DNA from: Methanococcus voltae
GTDB lineage: Archaea > AGJL01 > Methanococci > Methanococcales > Methanococcaceae
NCBI RefSeq assembly: GCF_017875395.1
Contig: NZ_JAGGMO010000003.1
Span: forward strand, 124,001 to 188,000
Direction of reading: 5' to 3'
Length of the DNA: 64,000 bases
Both the position numbers and the translations under genes were made by a program. The notes below the pieces were generated by a model. It saw only the letters and a list, made by a program, of their open reading frames with translations, searched no databases and was not told where the DNA came from. Of the stretch, positions 10,921 through 38,719 are shown piece by piece (position 1 is the stretch's first letter; each line of letters opens with the position of its first letter).

Positions 10921-11005
10921 GCAGGGATCGCCGAGCCTGGTCAAAGGCGCTGGACTTAAGATCCAGTCTCGTAGGAGTTCGAGGGTTCAAATCCCTTTCC
11001 CTGCA
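10921..11005 (+). tRNA. tRNA-Leu (anticodon UAA)
   Basis: An 85-nt class II tRNA. The acceptor GCAGGGA pairs with TCCCTGC, with discriminator A and no encoded CCA. The anticodon stem CTGGA/TCCAG encloses loop CTTAAGA with TAA at 10957-10959. A long variable arm and the T-loop GGTTCAAATCC follow. The 3' part from the anticodon arm onward belongs to the att repeat, so the element rebuilds an intact tRNA after integration. Confidence 0.95.
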
Positions 11006-11236
11006 CTAACTGATTTAGGAGTTTGATATTAAGTTATCAAGCTCCTTTTTCTATTTATGGAGTAATTTTTTAGGTATTGTACCATACCTATAGGACTGGA
11101 TTTAATCCAGTAAGTAAATAGGTACAAATTCAGTTCAATAAAATTGAGACTTTGTTGTAAATGAATACTCATTTAGATAATATTCTCAAAAAAATTGAGT
11201 AAGTAATGGATAGTTTGCTTTTTTAGTATTGTTTAT
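10954..11236. repeat. Left attachment repeat (attL), 283 bp
   Basis: Base-for-base identical to 38067-38349 by my reading. It contains the tRNA 3' half, a terminator hairpin and about 190 bp beyond. The next 17 bp still match at most positions before similarity is lost. Small dyads inside it include the 17-bp ACTGGATTTAATCCAGT at 11095, AAATGA/TCATTT and CTCAA/TTGAG, which could be integrase arm or core sites. Confidence 0.95.
11017..11050 (+). terminator. Hairpin plus T-tract after tRNA-Leu
   Basis: AGGAGTTTGATA pairs with TATCAAGCTCCT (one G-T pair) and is followed by TTTTT. It lies 11 bp after the tRNA and is duplicated at 38130-38163 in the right repeat. Confidence 0.7.
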
Positions 11237-11371
11237 AATATTAGTTTATTTTAATGTATAAATATATTTGTCTATTGACGTATAGATATTAGTTAAATGC
11301 ATTATTTTTGTTAAAAATGTATCGTTTTATTTAAGTATATGGATATAGTTTAAAAAAAAGAATTTTAAGAT

Positions 11372-19167: not shown

Positions 19168-19245
19168 TAACAACTGTTTTATCAATATTACTAATAATTT
19201 TTATTTTTAAGTAATATATTTTTTGAATTCTAATTTATTATATAT

Positions 19246-19310
19246 AACTCTTTTTATTACGATTAATTAATAAATAATTAATATATGTTACAACAATTTT
19301 TTATTATTTA
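19246..19310 (+). repeat. 65-bp direct repeat, copy 1 (promoter-like)
   Basis: The last 50 bp (19261-19310) are identical to 20958-21007 and the preceding 15 bp match at 12 positions or more. Each copy lies directly upstream of a rightward gene cluster and contains the near-palindrome ATTAATTAATAAATAATTAAT. It looks like a duplicated promoter/operator. Confidence 0.8.
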
Positions 19311-19331
19311 TAATTAGAATGAGGGGAGATT

Positions 19332-19866: not shown

Positions 19867-19999
19867 AATTTTATTGTTTTTATTATTTTTATAATAATAT
19901 TACAAATTACTAAAAAAGTATTACGATATACTTGTTAAAATAAAAATCCCTATTTTAAGTTAACTATTTTAAAAAAGCACTATTTTAGTATTTAATGAA

Positions 20000-20023
20000 G
20001 ATATGCGGAACCACCCGCATATC
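20000..20023. other. Hairpin GATATGCGG/CCGCATATC
   Basis: Perfect 9-bp inverted repeat around the 6-nt loop aaccac; one of the few GC-rich stems in the window. It opens the dyad-rich region. Confidence 0.75.
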
Positions 20024-20174
20024 AAAAGATCCGCATAAATTTAAATTATACATAGCAACCAACATTATGTATAATTTATCGTATTCTCTTTATCATTATT
20101 AGATATCTCATAATCAACTTATGCTGACATCTATATTTCATAGATAAATATTATATTCAATAATAATACTGTGT

Positions 20175-20194
20175 CAAAACTATATATAGTTTTG
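20175..20194. promoter_or_regulatory. 20-bp perfect palindrome
   Basis: CAAAACTATATATAGTTTTG is its own reverse complement. The half-site CAAAACT recurs at 20198. Suits binding of a dimeric regulator or initiator. Confidence 0.75.
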
Positions 20195-20358
20195 CGCCAA
20201 AACTGCGATACTATATAAAGTCAGGTTCTAAAAACTGTGATCCCTGTATCAAAAAAATATTTAAAAACACCATTTAACATTATTAAACGTTTAAACTTGT
20301 GAAATATACTAAAAAAAGAAAAAGATAAAACTTAGAGTATAAGTTTTATTACATTACC

Positions 20359-20466
20359 TTAAAAAGAAAATAAATTTACAATAAATGCAAACATATCTTT
20401 CAAAGAAAATGCATTGGTTGCTTTTTCTTTTTCAGTGTCCAATTCAAATAAGAATTTACACTTCAT
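20359..20466 (-). CDS. Small hydrophobic-tailed protein (35 aa)
   Basis: It starts MKCKFLFELDTEKEKATNAF and ends in the hydrophobic segment MFAFIVNLFSF. The ribosome site GAGGTGAG is ideally placed before ATG. A TATATATA at about 20585-20595 could drive leftward transcription with a 100-nt leader holding the inverted repeats. It is the only minus-strand gene in this block. Function unknown. Confidence 0.45.
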   Translation of the reverse strand: MKCKFLFELDTEKEKATNAFSLKDMFAFIVNLFSF

Positions 20467-20942
20467 GCTCTCACCTCATTAGTTAGTGAGGCACGTATTC
20501 TCAGGTGGTTTTATTTGTGCGGATCATTATTCTTATTTAAAAATTTAAATAATAATGATAAAGAGAATACGAAATCCTCCTAAATACTATATATATAGGT
20601 CATAATATAAATACTTATAATCATAATCCTTTTTTAAAATAGAACTCTAAAAAAATGTGTATACATAATACGAGTGTAAAACGATGTTTAATTAAACTGA
20701 TATATAAATATATCTGTTTAAACATTGAAAGAAGTATAATTATACTATATAATAAATTAAGATATGGAGTCTAACTAAGCTAAAAAATGGTAAAATATTA
20801 TATAAACTATCTAATAGAGTAATATATTAAAAAAAAGCATTTTAATCGCTTATGTGTTGACAAAAGCATACTTTTTAAATTTTATTTTTATTATTTATTT
20901 AAATTATTATTTTTAAAATTTCAATTCTAAATTATCATATTT

Positions 20943-21007
20943 AACTCTTTTTATCGTGATTAATTAATAAATAATTAATATATGTTACAACAATTTTTTA
21001 TTATTTA
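20943..21007 (+). repeat. 65-bp direct repeat, copy 2 (promoter-like)
   Basis: Second copy of the repeat at 19246-19310, ending 44 bp before the first gene of the ATPase cassette. It probably gives the cassette the same control as the small genes at 19332-19866. Confidence 0.8.
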
Positions 21008-21051
21008 ATTTGTTTAATACTAATCTATTATCCATAATATGAAGGTACATT

Positions 21052-21582
21052 ATGTTCCAAAATGACATATTTCAATTTATTTGGCCAACAATTAAATCAC
21101 TTATAGGTTTTGAAAATATAACTTTTAGCACTGCAGAATTACAGTTTTTTTTAATAATGGCATGTTTTATAATTATAGCATATACCTTATTGATGAAATG
21201 GCAGTCTAAAATTAGAGATAAATTATTTAACACCCTTATGATTGAAGTTGCTTATTTAAAAAGGAAGTATTACGAATCCAAAGGTAGTACATCAAAAAAA
21301 CCCACTGAGAACTATGATACATATTTCAGTGATACTATAAAATCAAAAATTGATAAAATTGATAAAGAATCTGAAATAAACTATAAAAAAATGATAATTT
21401 TCTTTTTGTGTTTTTTAGGATCCTCCGTGATTATTATTGACCTATTATCCTTCCACAAAATAAATAATATGTTTATAATAGTGTGTTCTCTTTTGACCCT
21501 ATTTTTTGCCATACAAACCCACACCTACTATGAAAAAATTAAAGAAGGATTAGAACTCCAAAAAGAAATTGTAAAAGAGTAG
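21052..21582 (+). CDS. Membrane protein, first gene of ATPase cassette
   Basis: A 176-aa protein with one membrane helix near residues 30-48 (FFLIMACFIIIAYTLLM), a basic cytoplasmic middle (about 50-118) and two more helices (IIFFLCFLGSSVIIIDLLS and MFIIVCSLLTLFFAIQ). It ends with a charged helix. No family recognised. It lies 5 bp before the SMC-like ATPase, so the two are very probably co-translated. In ATPase-linked conflict systems a membrane component often acts as the killing effector, but that is inference here. Confidence 0.7.
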   Translation: MFQNDIFQFIWPTIKSLIGFENITFSTAELQFFLIMACFIIIAYTLLMKWQSKIRDKLFNTLMIEVAYLKRKYYESKGSTSKKPTENYDTYFSDTIKSKIDKIDKESEINYKKMIIFFLCFLGSSVIIIDLLSFHKINNMFIIVCSLLTLFFAIQTHTYYEKIKEGLELQKEIVKE

Positions 21583-21587
21583 ATAAA

Positions 21588-23447
21588 ATGAGCAAGTTTA
21601 AAATTAAATCTTTTGACATATCTAAATTCTCAAATGATGCATACTTGGGCGTGAAAAAAGAAGATACTTACTTACATAGTTTATTAATCCGTGGAGCCAA
21701 TAAAACAGGTAAATCAACTACAGTAGAAGCGCTTAATTACGCAATTTACGGTCCAGAATGTGTCAATAGTAAATATCCGATAACTAATAATTCAAGAACG
21801 GATATTGAATTGGAAAATTCGGATTATAATCTAAAAATCTACAGATCTGGAAATAAAAAACATAAATTAATAATTAAAAATAAAAATACTAATGAAACAC
21901 TACCTGAAATAACAAATCATGACGAAATTCAAAAAAATTTAATCAAAATATTTAATATGGAATATAATAAATTAAAAGAACTTAAATATAAAACTATTTA
22001 TCAAAATGAAAATAACAATTTAAGAAAAAAGGGTATTAATGAATTAAAAAATGCCATATCCTATTACGGAGGATATTATAAAGAAAATTTAGAATTAATA
22101 GAAGACGAACAGTTATTGAACCAGATCAAAAAAGAGATTGAAAAATTAGATAACTCCAACAACCAGATCAAAAAAGAGATTGAAAAATTAGATAGAAATA
22201 TCAAATACAATGAACAGGATCAGCAGAATATTTCCCAATTTATTCAATATTATGAATCAGGTGAATTGGAAAAATATTTTACCACTAAAAAAAAGAATAA
22301 AGAAGCGGAAAATGAATTAAAAAAGTTAGGGCAAGTTGTAAAAGAAATCACCCGACTTCAAGAAGAAAAAAGAGGAATGGAACGATCAATGGATGAAATA
22401 AATCTATATTATGAAAATAAAATAATGGATATACTTAAAGATATATTATCTTCGTTAAATTGTCCCGTTTGTGGTGGCGAAATAGAAGAGAAATCTTTAA
22501 AGTATAGGGTTGAACACAAACAGTGTCCATTTTGTGGTAAAAAACATGATTCAATTGAATTATATGAAAAAATTAAACAAAAAATATCATTATCCAAAGA
22601 ACAACACCCTGAAACAATTGCAAAAATTGATAAACTAAATAAAATTATATCTGCTAAAAAAGATCTTAGAAATAATATTACTAAAAAAAATAAAAAAAAT
22701 CCATTCTATGGTTTAAAAAACTACACAATTAGAATTGTTGAAAAATATGATTCAATAGATTCTGATGAAATAAAAAATGAATATTCAGAATGTAAAATAA
22801 AATATAAATCATATACTGAATCTAATCAGGAATACAAAGACAATATTAAAAAACTTGATTCAGATGTTGAAAAGAATAATAATAACATAGAAACGTTAAA
22901 AAACAGTAAGCAAACAGTAAGCAAACATAAAACCGATCTAAAAACTAAATTAAAACAAGATATCGAATCTTATTTTTTAGAAAGGCTAAACTACTATTAT
23001 AGTTACTTATTTGGTTCAAAAGCAGATTTAATAATATCTTCGGAAAATAATTATATATTTTCAAAACCCTTAGCTGGTAACTCCAATAAATACGTCAATA
23101 TTTTTGATTCCTCAATTGGACAATGTCAAAAAAAATGTCTAGACATGGCAATTGTATTGGCTCTATCAGATATGGATCTTAAAAATAATATTTCTAACTT
23201 ATGTTATATATTAATGGAAGAACCTTCAGAGGGCATATATGATGATAAAGATTCTGAAGGAAATGATATAGAACATAAACAGAATTTATTTGAATTATTG
23301 AATAACAAAATTAAAGAAGGTATTCAATTGATAATACTATCCGCAGAAGAATCCTACCCCGATAATTTAGAAATACCTGAAAAAAATGTTCTAAAATTAA
23401 AACACAATTATCAAGATACATTACATGGAGTGGAAAACAATGGATAA
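21588..23447 (+). CDS. SMC/Rad50-like ATPase with zinc hook
   Basis: A 619-aa ABC-class ATPase. Walker A GANKTGKST is at 36-44. A coiled coil runs from about 120 to 480, broken by a zinc-hook-like CPVC (292-295) and CPFC (313-316). The signature-like SSIGQCQKKCLDMAIVLAL begins near 507 and Walker B ILMEEPSEG near 541. It is much shorter than Rad50 (about 850-1000 aa). A 34-bp DNA repeat with 42-bp period (22119-22152, 22161-22194) duplicates two heptads. The compact hook, the SxGQxxxxxLxxAxxLA signature and the gene context fit ATPases of Lamassu or ABC three-component conflict systems rather than host repair. Confidence 0.82.
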   Translation: MSKFKIKSFDISKFSNDAYLGVKKEDTYLHSLLIRGANKTGKSTTVEALNYAIYGPECVNSKYPITNNSRTDIELENSDYNLKIYRSGNKKHKLIIKNKNTNETLPEITNHDEIQKNLIKIFNMEYNKLKELKYKTIYQNENNNLRKKGINELKNAISYYGGYYKENLELIEDEQLLNQIKKEIEKLDNSNNQIKKEIEKLDRNIKYNEQDQQNISQFIQYYESGELEKYFTTKKKNKEAENELKKLGQVVKEITRLQEEKRGMERSMDEINLYYENKIMDILKDILSSLNCPVCGGEIEEKSLKYRVEHKQCPFCGKKHDSIELYEKIKQKISLSKEQHPETIAKIDKLNKIISAKKDLRNNITKKNKKNPFYGLKNYTIRIVEKYDSIDSDEIKNEYSECKIKYKSYTESNQEYKDNIKKLDSDVEKNNNNIETLKNSKQTVSKHKTDLKTKLKQDIESYFLERLNYYYSYLFGSKADLIISSENNYIFSKPLAGNSNKYVNIFDSSIGQCQKKCLDMAIVLALSDMDLKNNISNLCYILMEEPSEGIYDDKDSEGNDIEHKQNLFELLNNKIKEGIQLIILSAEESYPDNLEIPEKNVLKLKHNYQDTLHGVENNG

Positions 23448-23910
23448 ATTACCAAAAGAAATTGTTAGATTGGGAACTTTATCTAATGTGGATAATTTAG
23501 AAGGAAATATGAAAATACATAAAACATTGTATGCAGTAAATGAAAAACTTAAAGAAGAACAAATTAAGACCCGCATGGTTTTTGTAAGGAATTTTCATGG
23601 ACCTACGGACGAAGGATTATCAAAAGATATGTTAAAATACGAAAAGATGGATTTAGTTGAACTTGAAGAATTATACTTATATTCTCAAAAAAGTACTCGA
23701 TACAAAATAACTCAAAAAGGAAAAAGATGGGTAAATGGGATAAGCATATTCTTTGAAAAACTTAAAGATAAAGGTCTAATATCAAAAAATCCCATTAATA
23801 TTATTAACGTAGAATCTGAATCACTAAAAGACTTATCAGGATCGCAAATTGCAGATTCAGAATGCGTACAAGAATTTAAACAAAAAAATGCATTGGGTGT
23901 TAAAAGATAA
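23440..23910 (+). CDS. Small winged-helix-like middle component of cassette
   Basis: A 156-aa protein from ATG 23440, which has ggagtgg upstream; it overlaps the ATPase gene by 8 bp, showing translational coupling. The central part (KIHKTLYAVNEKLKEEQIK...YGP-like FHGPTDEGLSKDML...YKITQKGKRWV) reads like YwgA/DUF4065-type wHTH proteins, in which a (Y/H)GP motif is followed by a helix and an ITxKG wing. ABC three-component systems carry a comparable small middle component. The last 40 residues are unassigned. Confidence 0.68.
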   Translation: MDKLPKEIVRLGTLSNVDNLEGNMKIHKTLYAVNEKLKEEQIKTRMVFVRNFHGPTDEGLSKDMLKYEKMDLVELEELYLYSQKSTRYKITQKGKRWVNGISIFFEKLKDKGLISKNPINIINVESESLKDLSGSQIADSECVQEFKQKNALGVKR

Positions 23911-23938
23911 TTAATTATTTTTATTTTAAGGTGCTAAT

Positions 23939-25537
23939 ATGGTAAATATCACTGAAATCATTAAAAAAGCTAAAAATAACAACACTCCCGAAAAAGCAAT
24001 AAGGAGGACGTTAAGGGATATAAAAGATAAAGTAAAAACATATGATCAACCCTTAGCATTGATTATTGATAGTTTATTGGTCAGCGAAGGGCTTCCACCA
24101 CTTGCAGTGATAATTGCTACTGTATGGGATAATTATAGTACTTCAAAATCAGAAGAAGAATCAATACATCAAATTAATGAAATTTTGGAATATATTAAAA
24201 CTAATAAAGAATATGATCTTGAAATTAAAGAATATATGGAAGAAGCAAGATCTAATCTTGAAAATATTATTAATATTATTAATAATATAGATAATAAGAT
24301 GGATAAATACCATGATGCAAATATTGAACATTTTAAAAATCTAAATTTGAAAATGAATAATGTTGACGATACCATATCAAATAATATACAAAACATGGGA
24401 AATAAAATTATAAAACAGACGCAAAATACGGTTACAAACCAGCTAAGCGAATATCTTCCATTTTTAATAGGGTCGAGATGTGAAAAAATCAATCTTGCAA
24501 TTGACTATGCCAATAAACTTACAGAACAAAGTCAAGAGGGAATTCAATTAAACTCTTCCTTAACCATAGATCCAGTAATCCTGGCATCCAAAATTTTAAA
24601 ATTAAGGCGTTCAAACGAAGATCCTAACGAATATATTAAAAATATTTATTTAAATAATGGATCATTAGAAATATCCGAAGAAGAATTCAAAACTTTTGAA
24701 TTATTTAAAGAAATTTTAAAGAACTTAGGCGATGAAATAAAATACCCCATAATATTGAAGCCCAATTATCCCTTAATAAATATACGATTGGAGATAGGAT
24801 CTACATTTTATGCATTAGAAAATATGATATTCAAGATTACAGAGGTACAGGAAGACTTTATAACCCTATCAAGTAATAATAGAGCATTAAATATGTCGTT
24901 AAGTATTCCAAAACCTGGGAAAAAAATAGATCCTAACTATCAAAAATTAAATATTAGTTTGAGTTTTGAAGGCAGGCCAATATATGAGATAATGTCTTGT
25001 ATCAATTTTTTAAAAGAATTGATGATCAAAGAAAAAATCATATTCAGAGTTAATGACCAAATCATGAACGGTAATATGAAATTTGAACAGAAAATTGAAT
25101 TTAAAGAAGAAATGTTGATAAAGGTACTCTATCAAATTGAACAAGAATTTGCTATCACATTAAACCTACCTAAAGAAATAACTAAACGTGATTTAGAAAA
25201 TATTCAATATATATCAAATATATTAAATGGAGTTAAAAATAATAATAAACAAATTGATGCAGTAATACCTAAAAAATATATTAGGGATATATTAAAAAAA
25301 TATAATTCAGAAAACACAAACGAGCTATACACATCAATCACTGATCGATCCATATTTGGAAAAAATATACCATTAAGCAGATATTATTATATTTGTGATA
25401 GCTTCAAAATTAAAAATAGTGAAAATATAGAAAAACAGATGCAAAAAGGTTTAGAAGATATTAAAATTGAATTTGTAGCAGATAATGATATTATAATACG
25501 TAAAAGATCTATACCTTTAAATAACGATACAAAGTAG
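23939..25537 (+). CDS. Large cassette protein of unknown function
   Basis: A 532-aa protein. A charged N-terminus is followed by a hydrophobic stretch at about 41-63 (LALIIDSLLVSEGLPPLAVI), a long coiled-coil-like region (about 75-165) rich in Asn and Ile, then a 360-residue mixed domain with strand-rich parts (about 275-400). No catalytic motif is evident. The ribosome site is ggtgctaat. It is the last gene of the cassette and could be its sensor or effector. Its 3' end overlaps the convergent resolvase gene by 29 bp. Confidence 0.65.
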   Translation: MVNITEIIKKAKNNNTPEKAIRRTLRDIKDKVKTYDQPLALIIDSLLVSEGLPPLAVIIATVWDNYSTSKSEEESIHQINEILEYIKTNKEYDLEIKEYMEEARSNLENIINIINNIDNKMDKYHDANIEHFKNLNLKMNNVDDTISNNIQNMGNKIIKQTQNTVTNQLSEYLPFLIGSRCEKINLAIDYANKLTEQSQEGIQLNSSLTIDPVILASKILKLRRSNEDPNEYIKNIYLNNGSLEISEEEFKTFELFKEILKNLGDEIKYPIILKPNYPLINIRLEIGSTFYALENMIFKITEVQEDFITLSSNNRALNMSLSIPKPGKKIDPNYQKLNISLSFEGRPIYEIMSCINFLKELMIKEKIIFRVNDQIMNGNMKFEQKIEFKEEMLIKVLYQIEQEFAITLNLPKEITKRDLENIQYISNILNGVKNNNKQIDAVIPKKYIRDILKKYNSENTNELYTSITDRSIFGKNIPLSRYYYICDSFKIKNSENIEKQMQKGLEDIKIEFVADNDIIIRKRSIPLNNDTK

Positions 25538-26057
25538 TCTTACTTATTCCAGTGATTTCTTTTATTTCTTTTAAAGTACATTCACCAGAATTATATAATT
25601 TAATAGCCATTTCTAATTTTGATTTATCAACTTTAGGGCGACCACCGACACGTCCCCGAGTTCTTGCAACGTCTAAACCATTTTTAGTCCGTTCTGATGT
25701 CAAATCCCTTTCAAACTGAGCTAACCCGGCAAAAATAGTAAATAATAATTTACCGTGTGCAGAACTGGTATCAAGCCAAGACTCTTTTAAACTCTTAATC
25801 TCAACGTTTAAAGATTTGCAGTTTTCAACAATCTCAACTAAATCTTTCGTACTTCTTGAAATACGTGTAAGTTCTGTAACGATTAAAACATCATCTGCCC
25901 TAAGTAATTCAAACATTTTATCGAATTCAGGCCTATTTCTTTTAGTTCCTGAAATCTTTTCTAAAAATATCTTTTCACAACCTGCTTTTTTTAAATCTTC
26001 GACTTGTCGTTCCAGGTTCTGGTCTCTTGTTGACACTCTTGCATAACCAATTTTCAT
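25509..26057 (-). CDS. Serine recombinase (resolvase/invertase)
   Basis: A 182-aa small serine recombinase. The N-terminal catalytic domain has nucleophile Ser9 in GYARVSTRDQ, and the arginine-bearing motifs TELTRISRS and FERDLTSERTKNG. A C-terminal helix-turn-helix follows (TLKEIKEITGISKTTLYRYL). The length is typical of Tn3/Hin-type enzymes. The ribosome site is gggtgag. It may resolve multimers of the circular element or mobilise the adjacent cassette. The GGRPK hinge and sequence look bacterial, which suggests past transfer. Confidence 0.92.
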   Translation of the reverse strand: MKIGYARVSTRDQNLERQVEDLKKAGCEKIFLEKISGTKRNRPEFDKMFELLRADDVLIVTELTRISRSTKDLVEIVENCKSLNVEIKSLKESWLDTSSAHGKLLFTIFAGLAQFERDLTSERTKNGLDVARTRGRVGGRPKVDKSKLEMAIKLYNSGECTLKEIKEITGISKTTLYRYLKV

Positions 26058-33381: not shown

Positions 33382-35427
33382 TTATCTTTTTAATACATAT
33401 ATTGTACCAATTATCAAAATAATAGCTACAATTATAAATGTCTCATCAGGTACATGTGAGATGCCAAGACCTGCTTTTATTTCATGGAATTTTTCAAGTA
33501 ACGCCTGACCACCTGTAAATAATACCGATGGTTCATATTCTTTAGCTAATTCTTCTAATTTTTTAGCGTTATTAGCAAGTGCTTCAGCTTCTTCAGTATA
33601 TCCTTGTTCATACTTTTCAGCAGCCTGAGACCAGTAATCACCAGCAGGTTCATAGCAAGATGACGACAAATAAGTATATCTTTTTACATCTTCCGGATTA
33701 TCTGTAGTTTTAGACTTTTGCAAATATTCTAAAGCTTTAGAATAGTCATCTATTGCGTTTTTAGATGCTATTTTAGCATCTTGATTTTGATAATATCCAG
33801 AATTTTGTTTATCTTCAACTACGTCCTTTTTCTGTTTAGTAGACTTTTCCGCCAAATCAAGTATTTCATTAATCCTTGTTCTATCGGATTCGGATATTGC
33901 CCCATCAGCCGTTAAATCTGCAATTTCTTGCTTATCTTCATTAGATATGGAATATTTTAAGTTATTAATTACAGAAATAAGTGGTTTGGTGATATACCAT
34001 ATTGGGACTTTAGAATATCCGTCATCCACGTCAGCGACGACTAAAAAATAGATTTCATATGTTTCAGTATTTTTATTATAAAGATAATTTAAAGCGGTTT
34101 GAACCTCGGAGTGTACACCCATATCTTTGAAATTACCGGGCGTTTGAGAAACTAATGAGCTTGAATTAGAATCTAGTCTTAAAACTACTGCCCTATAATC
34201 ATCAGTTATAGTAACAGGCACTGGTTCTAAGTTGTTAGGCTGTCCAATAGCTACAAATCTATATTTTGAACTTGAATTATAAACGTGAGTACAACTTGCC
34301 CAGGTTCTTGAAATAATATCGGATGTTGCGCCGTTAGAATAACCAGCATAAGCTATTAATTCTAAATTATTAATATAATCTACTGGAAGCGATGCAGATG
34401 CACCATTAGTATAATATTTACCATTCTTTTCATTATTCCAAGCATCTAAAGATTTTAATTTAGTATTTATATTAATAGTTTTATCAAATTCTTCACTTTC
34501 ACGAGTATATGTATGTCCATCTTCTGAAGTATGTGATGTTCTTTCAATCTTGTATAATTGAGCATTACCATGTACTTCAACAATTATTTCAAATTTTTTA
34601 ACCTCTGCGTCCATTAATTCTTTTAATGTATCTCGATTAGGTATATTTGATATCATAGAATTAGCCTTTCCAATATATGGGTCAGGTGCTTTCATGGTTA
34701 CATTATAATATACTTTGTGAATATCTTCTTCATGTTCTTCACAATCTTTCCATAATGTAGGAATATCATTTATCCTTTTTTCATTCCATTTTCTACCTGA
34801 TGAATCCACCAAGTATATGGAAATATAATCAATATTAACGTAGGATTTATTTTCTGAACCCGTTATGGCTTCAGTTAATTCAACAGAAATTGGAAAAGCT
34901 GAAAAACCATAAATCTTTTCAGGTCCTTCAAGATTAATTATAACGTCTGATAAAGTACCTTCAGTTTTATAATTATAATTACAAATTGAACTATCTAATG
35001 TATTTCTTAATTCTAAAATATCTCTTGCAGATGCTTCTTCTGAATACTGCTTAAACCCTGCTATTTTTTGATAAGCTTCAGTATTGTTAATATAATTAGT
35101 ATTGCTTACGTTTTTCTCACCCGTTACAACTGCAGCATCGGTATTATCTTTTCCTGTTGCCCAACGGTATACTGAATCAGCAACTATGGCACCACCTATG
35201 GCACATCCTGCCACAATTGCAAGAGGACCCCAAGCGGGTAATGTAACTACTGCAGCAACTGCAGTGACGACAGTTCCTGCTACAGCCAGCCCTGCCATAC
35301 CACCTACTCCAACAGCAAGACCATCATCCATCCCAACATCATGACCGAAAACGTCAATAGCACATGCAGGTTGAATAAGAAGAAGAGAGATAAGGATACT
35401 AATTAATTTATAATGTTGATTTATCAT
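33382..35427 (-). CDS. Large secreted anchored protein, probable virion spike or envelope protein
   Basis: A 681-aa protein with signal peptide (1-23, ending CAI), a Gly/Ala/Val-rich hydrophobic segment (about 32-88) that could be a fusion or membrane-active region, a long beta-rich outside domain (about 120-500), a helical TPR-like part (about 510-640; ALEYLQKSKT, YTEEAEALANNAKKLEELAK) and a C-terminal membrane helix (TFIIVAIILIIGTIYVL) followed by KR. It overlaps the 644-aa gene by 4 bp. No named family. Confidence 0.7.
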   Translation of the reverse strand: MINQHYKLISILISLLLIQPACAIDVFGHDVGMDDGLAVGVGGMAGLAVAGTVVTAVAAVVTLPAWGPLAIVAGCAIGGAIVADSVYRWATGKDNTDAAVVTGEKNVSNTNYINNTEAYQKIAGFKQYSEEASARDILELRNTLDSSICNYNYKTEGTLSDVIINLEGPEKIYGFSAFPISVELTEAITGSENKSYVNIDYISIYLVDSSGRKWNEKRINDIPTLWKDCEEHEEDIHKVYYNVTMKAPDPYIGKANSMISNIPNRDTLKELMDAEVKKFEIIVEVHGNAQLYKIERTSHTSEDGHTYTRESEEFDKTININTKLKSLDAWNNEKNGKYYTNGASASLPVDYINNLELIAYAGYSNGATSDIISRTWASCTHVYNSSSKYRFVAIGQPNNLEPVPVTITDDYRAVVLRLDSNSSSLVSQTPGNFKDMGVHSEVQTALNYLYNKNTETYEIYFLVVADVDDGYSKVPIWYITKPLISVINNLKYSISNEDKQEIADLTADGAISESDRTRINEILDLAEKSTKQKKDVVEDKQNSGYYQNQDAKIASKNAIDDYSKALEYLQKSKTTDNPEDVKRYTYLSSSCYEPAGDYWSQAAEKYEQGYTEEAEALANNAKKLEELAKEYEPSVLFTGGQALLEKFHEIKAGLGISHVPDETFIIVAIILIIGTIYVLKR

Positions 35428-37672: not shown

Positions 37673-38066
37673 AAATAACACCTCGAAAATAAATATATTC
37701 ATAAATTTCGATATAACAAAAATAGAGATAGATATTAGGAAATGAGCATCCTCATCATCGAAAAATCTCAGAGGAGAAAAGGCAAAACGGAGATTACAGT
37801 TTAATATGTGTTTAAAGTAATATATAAATATATCTATATATACCGATATAACCCTAAATACTAAGGTAAATTAACCATATTAAAGAATAAATCAGTCATA
37901 TGGTGTACAATCGATTTATTAAGGATATTAACAAATAAAAATAATTACGTAATCGACTTAAAAACTAATAATAATTAACAGTTTAATCTATCGCTAAATT
38001 AAAAAATCGCAATAGAATATTTAACATTTATTTTATAGATTTATATAAAATGTTGAATTCTGGTGC
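37673..38066. other. Late promoter region and right edge of element
   Basis: Contains TTTATATA on the minus strand at 37821-37828, about 150 bp upstream of the late operon start, in a run of tat repeats, and then AT-rich sequence up to the right repeat. A possible 20-codon plus-strand frame near 37743 is too short to support. Confidence 0.5.
37821..37828 (-). promoter_or_regulatory. Candidate late promoter TATA box
   Basis: TTTATATA read on the minus strand, identical to the Methanococcus box A consensus. Transcription would start about 25 bp downstream and leave a leader of about 125 nt before the first late gene. Confidence 0.4.
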
Positions 38067-38349
38067 ACTTAAGATCCAGTCTCGTAGGAGTTCGAGGGTT
38101 CAAATCCCTTTCCCTGCACTAACTGATTTAGGAGTTTGATATTAAGTTATCAAGCTCCTTTTTCTATTTATGGAGTAATTTTTTAGGTATTGTACCATAC
38201 CTATAGGACTGGATTTAATCCAGTAAGTAAATAGGTACAAATTCAGTTCAATAAAATTGAGACTTTGTTGTAAATGAATACTCATTTAGATAATATTCTC
38301 AAAAAAATTGAGTAAGTAATGGATAGTTTGCTTTTTTAGTATTGTTTAT
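38067..38349. repeat. Right attachment repeat (attR), 283 bp
   Basis: Identical to 10954-11236 at an offset of 27,113 bp. It begins with the tRNA-Leu 3' half (38067-38118), which lacks the 5' half and cannot be a functional tRNA, and includes a copy of the terminator hairpin. Upstream sequence (tggtgc) is from the element. Confidence 0.95.
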
Positions 38350-38719
38350 TATATTGGTTTATTTTTGTAACATAATTTTAATTTTTTCGAATCCTAAATT
38401 ATAATATATAAGTTTTTCTGTTTTAATCGTTTAGAAACTAATTAATATATAAATTTACAACAAATTACTTGTTTAGCATTGAAAATAAAACAATTGAATT
38501 AATTAAGGATATTAAATAATAAATCTCTTTTTTAATCATTTTTTTTAATTTTCCTACATGTAAATGCTAAATATATTAAAATAGCAATCATAATACTTAA
38601 TTTTTTTAGATATTTTATGAATGTTATAGCTAAAACTACGTAGTTTATCATTCTTTGTATATTCAAAGAATATGCACAAACTTAACATAATAATATTATA
38701 AATTCCTTAGAGGCATGAA
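38350..38719. other. Upstream region of surface protein gene
   Basis: A 370-bp AT-rich region between attR and the surface protein gene. The part at about 38380-38465 (...aactaattaatatataaatttacaacaaatt) loosely resembles the 65-bp promoter-like repeat of the element. No gene seen. Confidence 0.45.

Follow-up and report, generated by a model that had tools for sequence, protein, structure and literature searches.

The question raised by this locus was what a repeat-rich region at 19990-20600 does within an element integrated in a 1.9-Mb, AT-rich archaeal genome (positions are those of the window, the whole 64,000-nucleotide stretch analysed). An earlier note, made from the letters alone, had proposed a replication origin or a two-state structured RNA. 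Most of the repeats that it listed were found as described: a GC-rich hairpin (20000-20023), an AT-rich hairpin (about 20523-20559), the 20-bp perfect palindrome CAAAACTATATATAGTTTTG (20175-20194) and two AAAACTGYGAT repeats (20199-20209 and 20231-20241, 32 bp apart), together with two inverted pairs that do cross in the order A-B-A'-B'. The longer pair, given as 22 bp, is perfect and measures 23 bp (20079-20101/20550-20572, hereafter X' and X), and the 13-bp pair GATCCGCA[T/C]AAAT (20028-20040/20513-20525, B' and B) is present with one mismatch. The description of this as the only long non-coding stretch of the element was roughly right (19867-21051, 1.2 kb), except that the stretch holds a small gene. 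This 35-aa ORF, on the minus strand at 20466-20359, had been overlooked, as had a terminator hairpin (20325-20349), a second hairpin (20042-20078) and another two complementary pairs that cross, C (20009-20015/20504-20510) and D (20054-20062/20414-20422). Dinucleotide shuffling of the intergenic stretch (19867-21051), repeated 300 times, gave inverted pairs of up to 17 bp. Neither the window nor a 200-kb sample of the same genome has a second perfect pair that reaches 18 bp with 50-800 bp between its arms. AAAACTGYGAT occurs in five exact copies in the 1.9-Mb genome, and the two copies here form the sole close pair.

The region lies in an element of about 27 kb that has tRNA-Leu as its integration site. 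A sequence of about 320 bp is present twice, at 10948-11269 and close to the far end of the element at 38064-38365, both copies matching the same sister-element stretches. Since the element encodes a T26-6p core protein (33382-35427; PF22265, E 1.4e-58), we placed it with the pT26-2 family of archaeal plasmids, in what appears to be a Methanococcus-like host, T26-6p alone being matched by name among the seven core genes. A second T26-6p-type protein is encoded elsewhere in the same genome (G000:C2:68151-68552, in L089), so a second, more distant element of this family is probably present.

Two related genomes (G005 and G006) carry sister elements, with primase-helicases 97.4 and 98.0% identical and an integrase 99.7% identical to those of the element studied here. 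The block 19895-20889 has no homology in either: the match to G005 stops at 19894 and restarts in a repeat at 20890-21007, and in this sister a different gene begins about 30 bp past the break. X, B, D and the AAAACTGYGAT pair were all missing from the corresponding slot of both sisters, and we therefore read this insertion-like block as cargo in a variable slot, beside defence-like genes that differ among the three elements. The adjoining cargo (21052-25537) encodes an SMC-like ATPase that matches LmuB (E 3e-20) and a small protein whose match to LmuC is weak, besides a 176-aa protein and one of 532 aa and unknown kind; on these matches it looks like a Lamassu-type defence system. By eye, the genes in the slot specify in G005 (L033 12177-17154) an ATPase of SMC/ABC-like type together with an HNH-like protein, and in G006 (L034 5364-11072) one DUF262-like protein and one that is RelA/SpoT-like. 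As the same slot carries different defence-like genes in the sisters, it appears to be an exchange point, situated beside a gene for a small serine recombinase. The repeat in which homology resumes is a ~115-bp intergenic sequence, also present in the sister elements, with copies at 19192-19319, 20890-21007 and 38374-38466; two of them lie upstream of element genes and the third just past the far att copy. It may be a promoter/operator used in common, or a point where cargo is exchanged by recombination.

On the minus strand, the block contains a self-contained peptide gene. The 35-aa ORF (MKCKFLFELDTEKEKATNAFSLKDMFAFIVNLFSF) is preceded by the Shine-Dalgarno sequence GAGGTGA (20471-20477), whose GGTGA ends 4 nt before the ATG. 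This gap is the genome's modal spacing: among 109 background genes of at least 200 codons, 27 had a GGTGA, 18 of them at exactly 4 nt, and GGTGA stands upstream of 1.2% of all ATG triplets. It is the sole ORF with a Shine-Dalgarno sequence on either strand of the intergenic region, and it is followed by a terminator-like hairpin (ATAAAACTTA/TAAGTTTTAT, z -6.11) and a T-rich tract (20309-20349 in all). The combination of Shine-Dalgarno, ORF and terminator arose in none of 1000 shuffles, and Shine-Dalgarno plus ORF in 20 of 1000. The ORF thus has its own ribosome site and terminator, as expected of a type I toxin gene. At this position GC skew dips locally within a block of plus-strand genes, as would fit a unit on the minus strand. 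The peptide itself reaches a Kyte-Doolittle maximum of 1.01 over 19 residues, without a clear transmembrane segment; type I toxins are typically, though not obligatorily, hydrophobic and equipped with a transmembrane helix, SymE and RalR being exceptions (PMC12390103).

The predicted mRNA of this gene (RNA 1, minus strand, 20309-20581) would be about 272 nt long, with its 3' end in the poly-T near 20309. We infer its 5' end, about 20581, from a TATA-like box, TTTATATT (20604-20611, minus strand), and the rule that places transcription start 26/27 nt downstream of the box (PMC5512572). That box is weak on its own, as TATA boxes are in DNA of 78% AT, and there are two alternatives, TATATATA (20590-20597, giving a shorter leader) and TTTATATA (20701-20708). 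The start of the mRNA can be read in two ways. RNA 1 was predicted to fold strongly (minimum free energy -67.3 kcal/mol, z -6.00, matched by none of 200 shuffles), and the opposite strand less well (z -3.95). In the centroid structure, a leader helix (P1, 20494-20571) joins CGUAUUCUC (20571-20563) to GAGAAUACG (20502-20494) and encloses the AT-rich hairpin; another 5' hairpin of nearly equal energy competes with P1. The leader carries X, followed by B (GATCCGCACAAAT), which is mostly unpaired in the prediction, and C (AACCACC), which is predicted to be single-stranded, and D (AGCAACCAA) lies within the ORF. Between C and D, a hairpin at 20464-20495 (-13.9 kcal/mol, z -3.98) pairs both the Shine-Dalgarno sequence and the start codon (20464-20466), and such a fold would leave the mRNA shut for translation, as in type I toxin-antitoxin systems.

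The partner arms of all four pairs fall in a second predicted minus-strand RNA of about 216 nt (RNA 2, 19975-20190, z -2.39). A perfect TTTATATA box at 20219-20212 on this strand, with the 26/27-bp rule, puts its start near 20190. Within the region TTTATATA occurs on the minus strand only, with one copy well placed for RNA 2, and some 1.65 occurrences are expected by chance over both strands, which makes the box weak alone. The two AAAACTGYGAT direct repeats (20199-20241) lie on either side of it and may form an operator. Transcription from about 20190 would pass X', D', B' and C' in turn and reach T-runs near 19975, where we place the 3' end. X' would form a duplex of -29.5 kcal/mol with X, and B' one of -15.7 kcal/mol with B. 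D' is presented in the loop of the AT-rich hairpin 20042-20078 (-9.4 kcal/mol, z -3.12; D:D' duplex -15.1 kcal/mol) and C' in that of the GC-rich hairpin (-14.0 kcal/mol, z -4.74; C:C' duplex -13.8 kcal/mol).

We then compared the two predicted RNAs for complementarity without reference to the known repeats, using criteria that were set after the sequence had been read. The four best segments were X (23 nt), D (9 nt), B (8 nt perfect; 12 of 13 with one mismatch) and C (7 nt), scoring 40, 19.5, 19.2 and 16.6 bits, and none of 1000 shuffles reached the score at any rank. Ranks 2-4 alone exceeded the top three segments of 999 of the 1000 shuffles, so the evidence for complementarity is independent of X. 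When segments were weighted by predicted single-strandedness, D and C ranked first, a result that none of 400 shuffles matched: C and D are predicted to be unpaired in the mRNA, and C' and D' occupy the apical loops of the two stable hairpins of RNA 2. Predicted RNA 2 would accordingly share extended complementarity with RNA 1, another mark of type I systems. Along the mRNA the sites follow the order X-B-C-D, along the antisense RNA the order X'-D'-B'-C'. Because these orders differ, the sites were not made by a single inverted duplication, and the four look individually kept or evolved. As D lies inside the ORF, it ties the antisense RNA to the 35-aa ORF independently of the leader. As a point against the antisense reading, the Shine-Dalgarno sequence itself is left uncovered by the antisense sites.

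These data are consistent with the region being a two-RNA antisense module that an integrated plasmid of the pT26-2 family carries as cargo, a reading that we consider probable. In the mechanism we propose, RNA 1 would be a folded mRNA for the 35-aa peptide with its ribosome site and AUG shut in a hairpin, and RNA 2 a non-coding RNA offering the loops C' and D' to two single-stranded mRNA sites. The first contacts would fall on either side of the hidden ribosome site, one upstream and one inside the ORF, after which X:X' and B:B' would lock the mRNA leader. X' contains the same GAGAAUACG as one strand of P1, and so would replace P1. The differing site orders forbid a plain continuous duplex, so that the complex would be clamp-like or knotted. 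Binding of RNA 2 may then block translation, mark the mRNA for decay, or both, and the crossing repeats in the DNA would be a by-product of this pairing in trans. The likeliest use would be in the manner of a type I toxin-antitoxin, in which an unstable RNA restrains a peptide that inhibits growth and, as the outcome, the plasmid is kept or the neighbouring defence genes are armed. Our best reading is thus an antisense-RNA-regulated peptide gene that may work like such a module. We do not claim membership of the type I class, the peptide lacking a clear transmembrane helix of the usual kind, and we hold toxicity of the peptide, taken alone, to be a tentative proposition somewhat short of even chances.

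Relatives of the module were sought widely. Neither the peptide nor the RNAs had a homologue among 150 relatives, phages and plasmids or in pattern scans, which counts against our reading. A search for related loci that started from the primase-helicase gave none. DNA searches of the element's own genome, the 150 relative genomes, the phylum, phages and plasmids returned AT-rich background matches only, and tblastn gave no credible relative of the peptide. A 7-residue peptide pattern had 44 viral matches, which look like chance and lie in unrelated contexts by tblastn; they were rejected. Up to E 1, none of the Rfam 15 covariance models matched the region. A scan of other pT26-2-family loci and of 220 kb of host chromosome showed no module of comparable strength, its only other candidate being a weak one, a 77-codon ORF with a Shine-Dalgarno sequence and a 16-nt complementary segment nearby (L115+L116, G008:C1, about 1185020).

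Of the two functions first proposed for the region, a plasmid replication origin has in its favour that this is the longest intergenic stretch of the element, AT-rich and rich in repeats. PMC6972569 assigns origins of the pT26-2 family to AT-rich, repeat-rich intergenic regions by skew and repeat-richness, and describes origin sequence and position as variable within the family. The whole block is, however, missing from sisters whose primase-helicase and integrase are nearly identical, a different gene standing at the position in G005. The GC-skew turning points fall at gene-strand switches near 17 kb and 25.5 kb and not at the region, 5 kb separate the region from the primase-helicase gene, and there is no iteron array beyond the two AAAACTGYGAT copies. 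The block would satisfy repeat-richness and skew criteria even if it were no origin, and on this indirect evidence we regard an origin as very unlikely. The second proposal, a structured RNA acting as a two-state switch, stood in its first half: the region does appear to specify structured RNA, but as two RNAs able to pair in trans rather than as a single switch. One long RNA across 19990-20600, on either strand, that used alternative folds or a pseudoknot would explain why the plus strand folds far better than shuffles (z -9.65, largely through X:X'). Such an RNA would have a terminator in its midst on the minus strand (20309-20349), and on the plus strand it would have neither an ORF with a ribosome site nor a TTTATATA box; the leader folds better on the minus strand and no Rfam family was matched. 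We judge this reading to be as improbable as the origin.

Two further alternatives are a recombination site and a CRISPR-guided module. Perfect 23-bp inverted repeats spaced 448 bp apart might be recombination sites or terminal repeats, bounding an invertible segment or a small transposon, the more so with a small serine recombinase encoded at 25509-26057. Yet B, C and D cross X, which therefore does not simply bound the block; by eye there is no clear target duplication, no further copies occur in the genome, and G005 has the recombinase (99%) without the repeats. These observations leave recombination with a slight chance, smaller than that of an origin. RNA 2 might instead resemble a crRNA and guide the host Cascade to repress RNA 1, as in CreTA, a system known from archaea (PMC8501985). 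The host has Cas1 and a 23-repeat array, and X sits at the start of the target gene. The host CRISPR repeat, however, scores 11 when aligned to the region, no more than the shuffle mean of 11.06, and the complementarity is spread over four mRNA sites, one of them within the ORF. RNA 2 having no CRISPR-repeat-like flanks, the CRISPR-guided reading was dropped, and we give it scarcely any weight. The host array (L043 5658-7439, G000:C2) has at least 23 repeats of 37 nt (GTCGCAGTGGCAATTCCATTAAAACAAGGATTGAAAC), and none of its spacers matches the element. The alternative closest to our own keeps the antisense module and makes the peptide a regulator or signal, acting for example on excision, on the copy number of the plasmid or on the Lamassu-like genes next to it, with the antisense RNA as a dosage sensor. 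All the two-RNA evidence applies to it equally, the peptide is unlike a typical hydrophobic type I toxin, and a terminator, not a replication gene, comes after the peptide gene. The self-contained unit of Shine-Dalgarno, ORF and terminator, the translationally shut mRNA and the slot for defence genes are rather the usual setting of a toxin-antitoxin, and a regulatory peptide appears to us possible but doubtful.

According to a 2025 paper that adds a cyanobacterial case (PMC12390103), type I toxin-antitoxin systems were previously known only in Proteobacteria, Firmicutes and Tenericutes. If the toxin-antitoxin reading holds, a plasmid-borne Methanococcus example would extend RNA-controlled peptide addiction to archaea, in a genus with genetic tools. 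That the module is a working archaeal type I toxin-antitoxin, whose peptide is not related to known toxins and whose antisense RNA grips its target at four sites, we put forward as a conjecture with perhaps one chance in three. The available part of PMC6972569 makes no mention of an antisense RNA module in the pT26-2 family and treats repeat-rich intergenic regions as putative origins; our analysis suggests that some regions so labelled could be modules of this kind.

Among known systems, the host element most resembles MVV1 of Methanococcus voltae A3, given in PMC6972569 as a member of the pT26-2 family, in its T26-6p protein, its integration in tRNA-Leu and its size of about 27 kb. Like the module described here, CreTA is an RNA-controlled toxin unit known in archaea (PMC8501985), but its product is a tRNA-sequestering RNA, whereas ours is presumed to be a peptide and has no CRISPR-repeat-like sequences beside it. 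The E. coli loci shoB-ohsC, zor-orz, dinQ-agrB and tisB-istR are type I loci with an adjacent antisense RNA aimed at a long 5' UTR (PMC4147584). In them, as by prediction in the module, the 5' UTR of a small peptide gene is long and structured, and an RNA complementary to it comes from a separate gene next door. Their RNAs are transcribed divergently, whereas both RNAs here are predicted to run in the same direction; the module also differs in its four sites, one inside the ORF, in a peptide unrelated to any found and in its archaeal host. The par locus of pAD1 (Fst/RNA II) is plasmid-borne and encodes a 33-aa peptide on a ~230-nt mRNA whose leader stem-loop hides the Shine-Dalgarno sequence, and its RNAs start pairing by loop-initiated kissing and continue at dispersed repeats (PMC7472228). 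Its repeats are direct, its transcription convergent and its terminator shared, in contrast to the inverted repeats and the predicted tandem transcription and separate terminators here, and the PXXXG(C) motif in the hydrophobic domain of Fst is absent from the 35-aa peptide. The module nonetheless resembles par in being a plasmid-borne peptide module with, by prediction, a hidden Shine-Dalgarno sequence and dispersed pairing that starts at loops.
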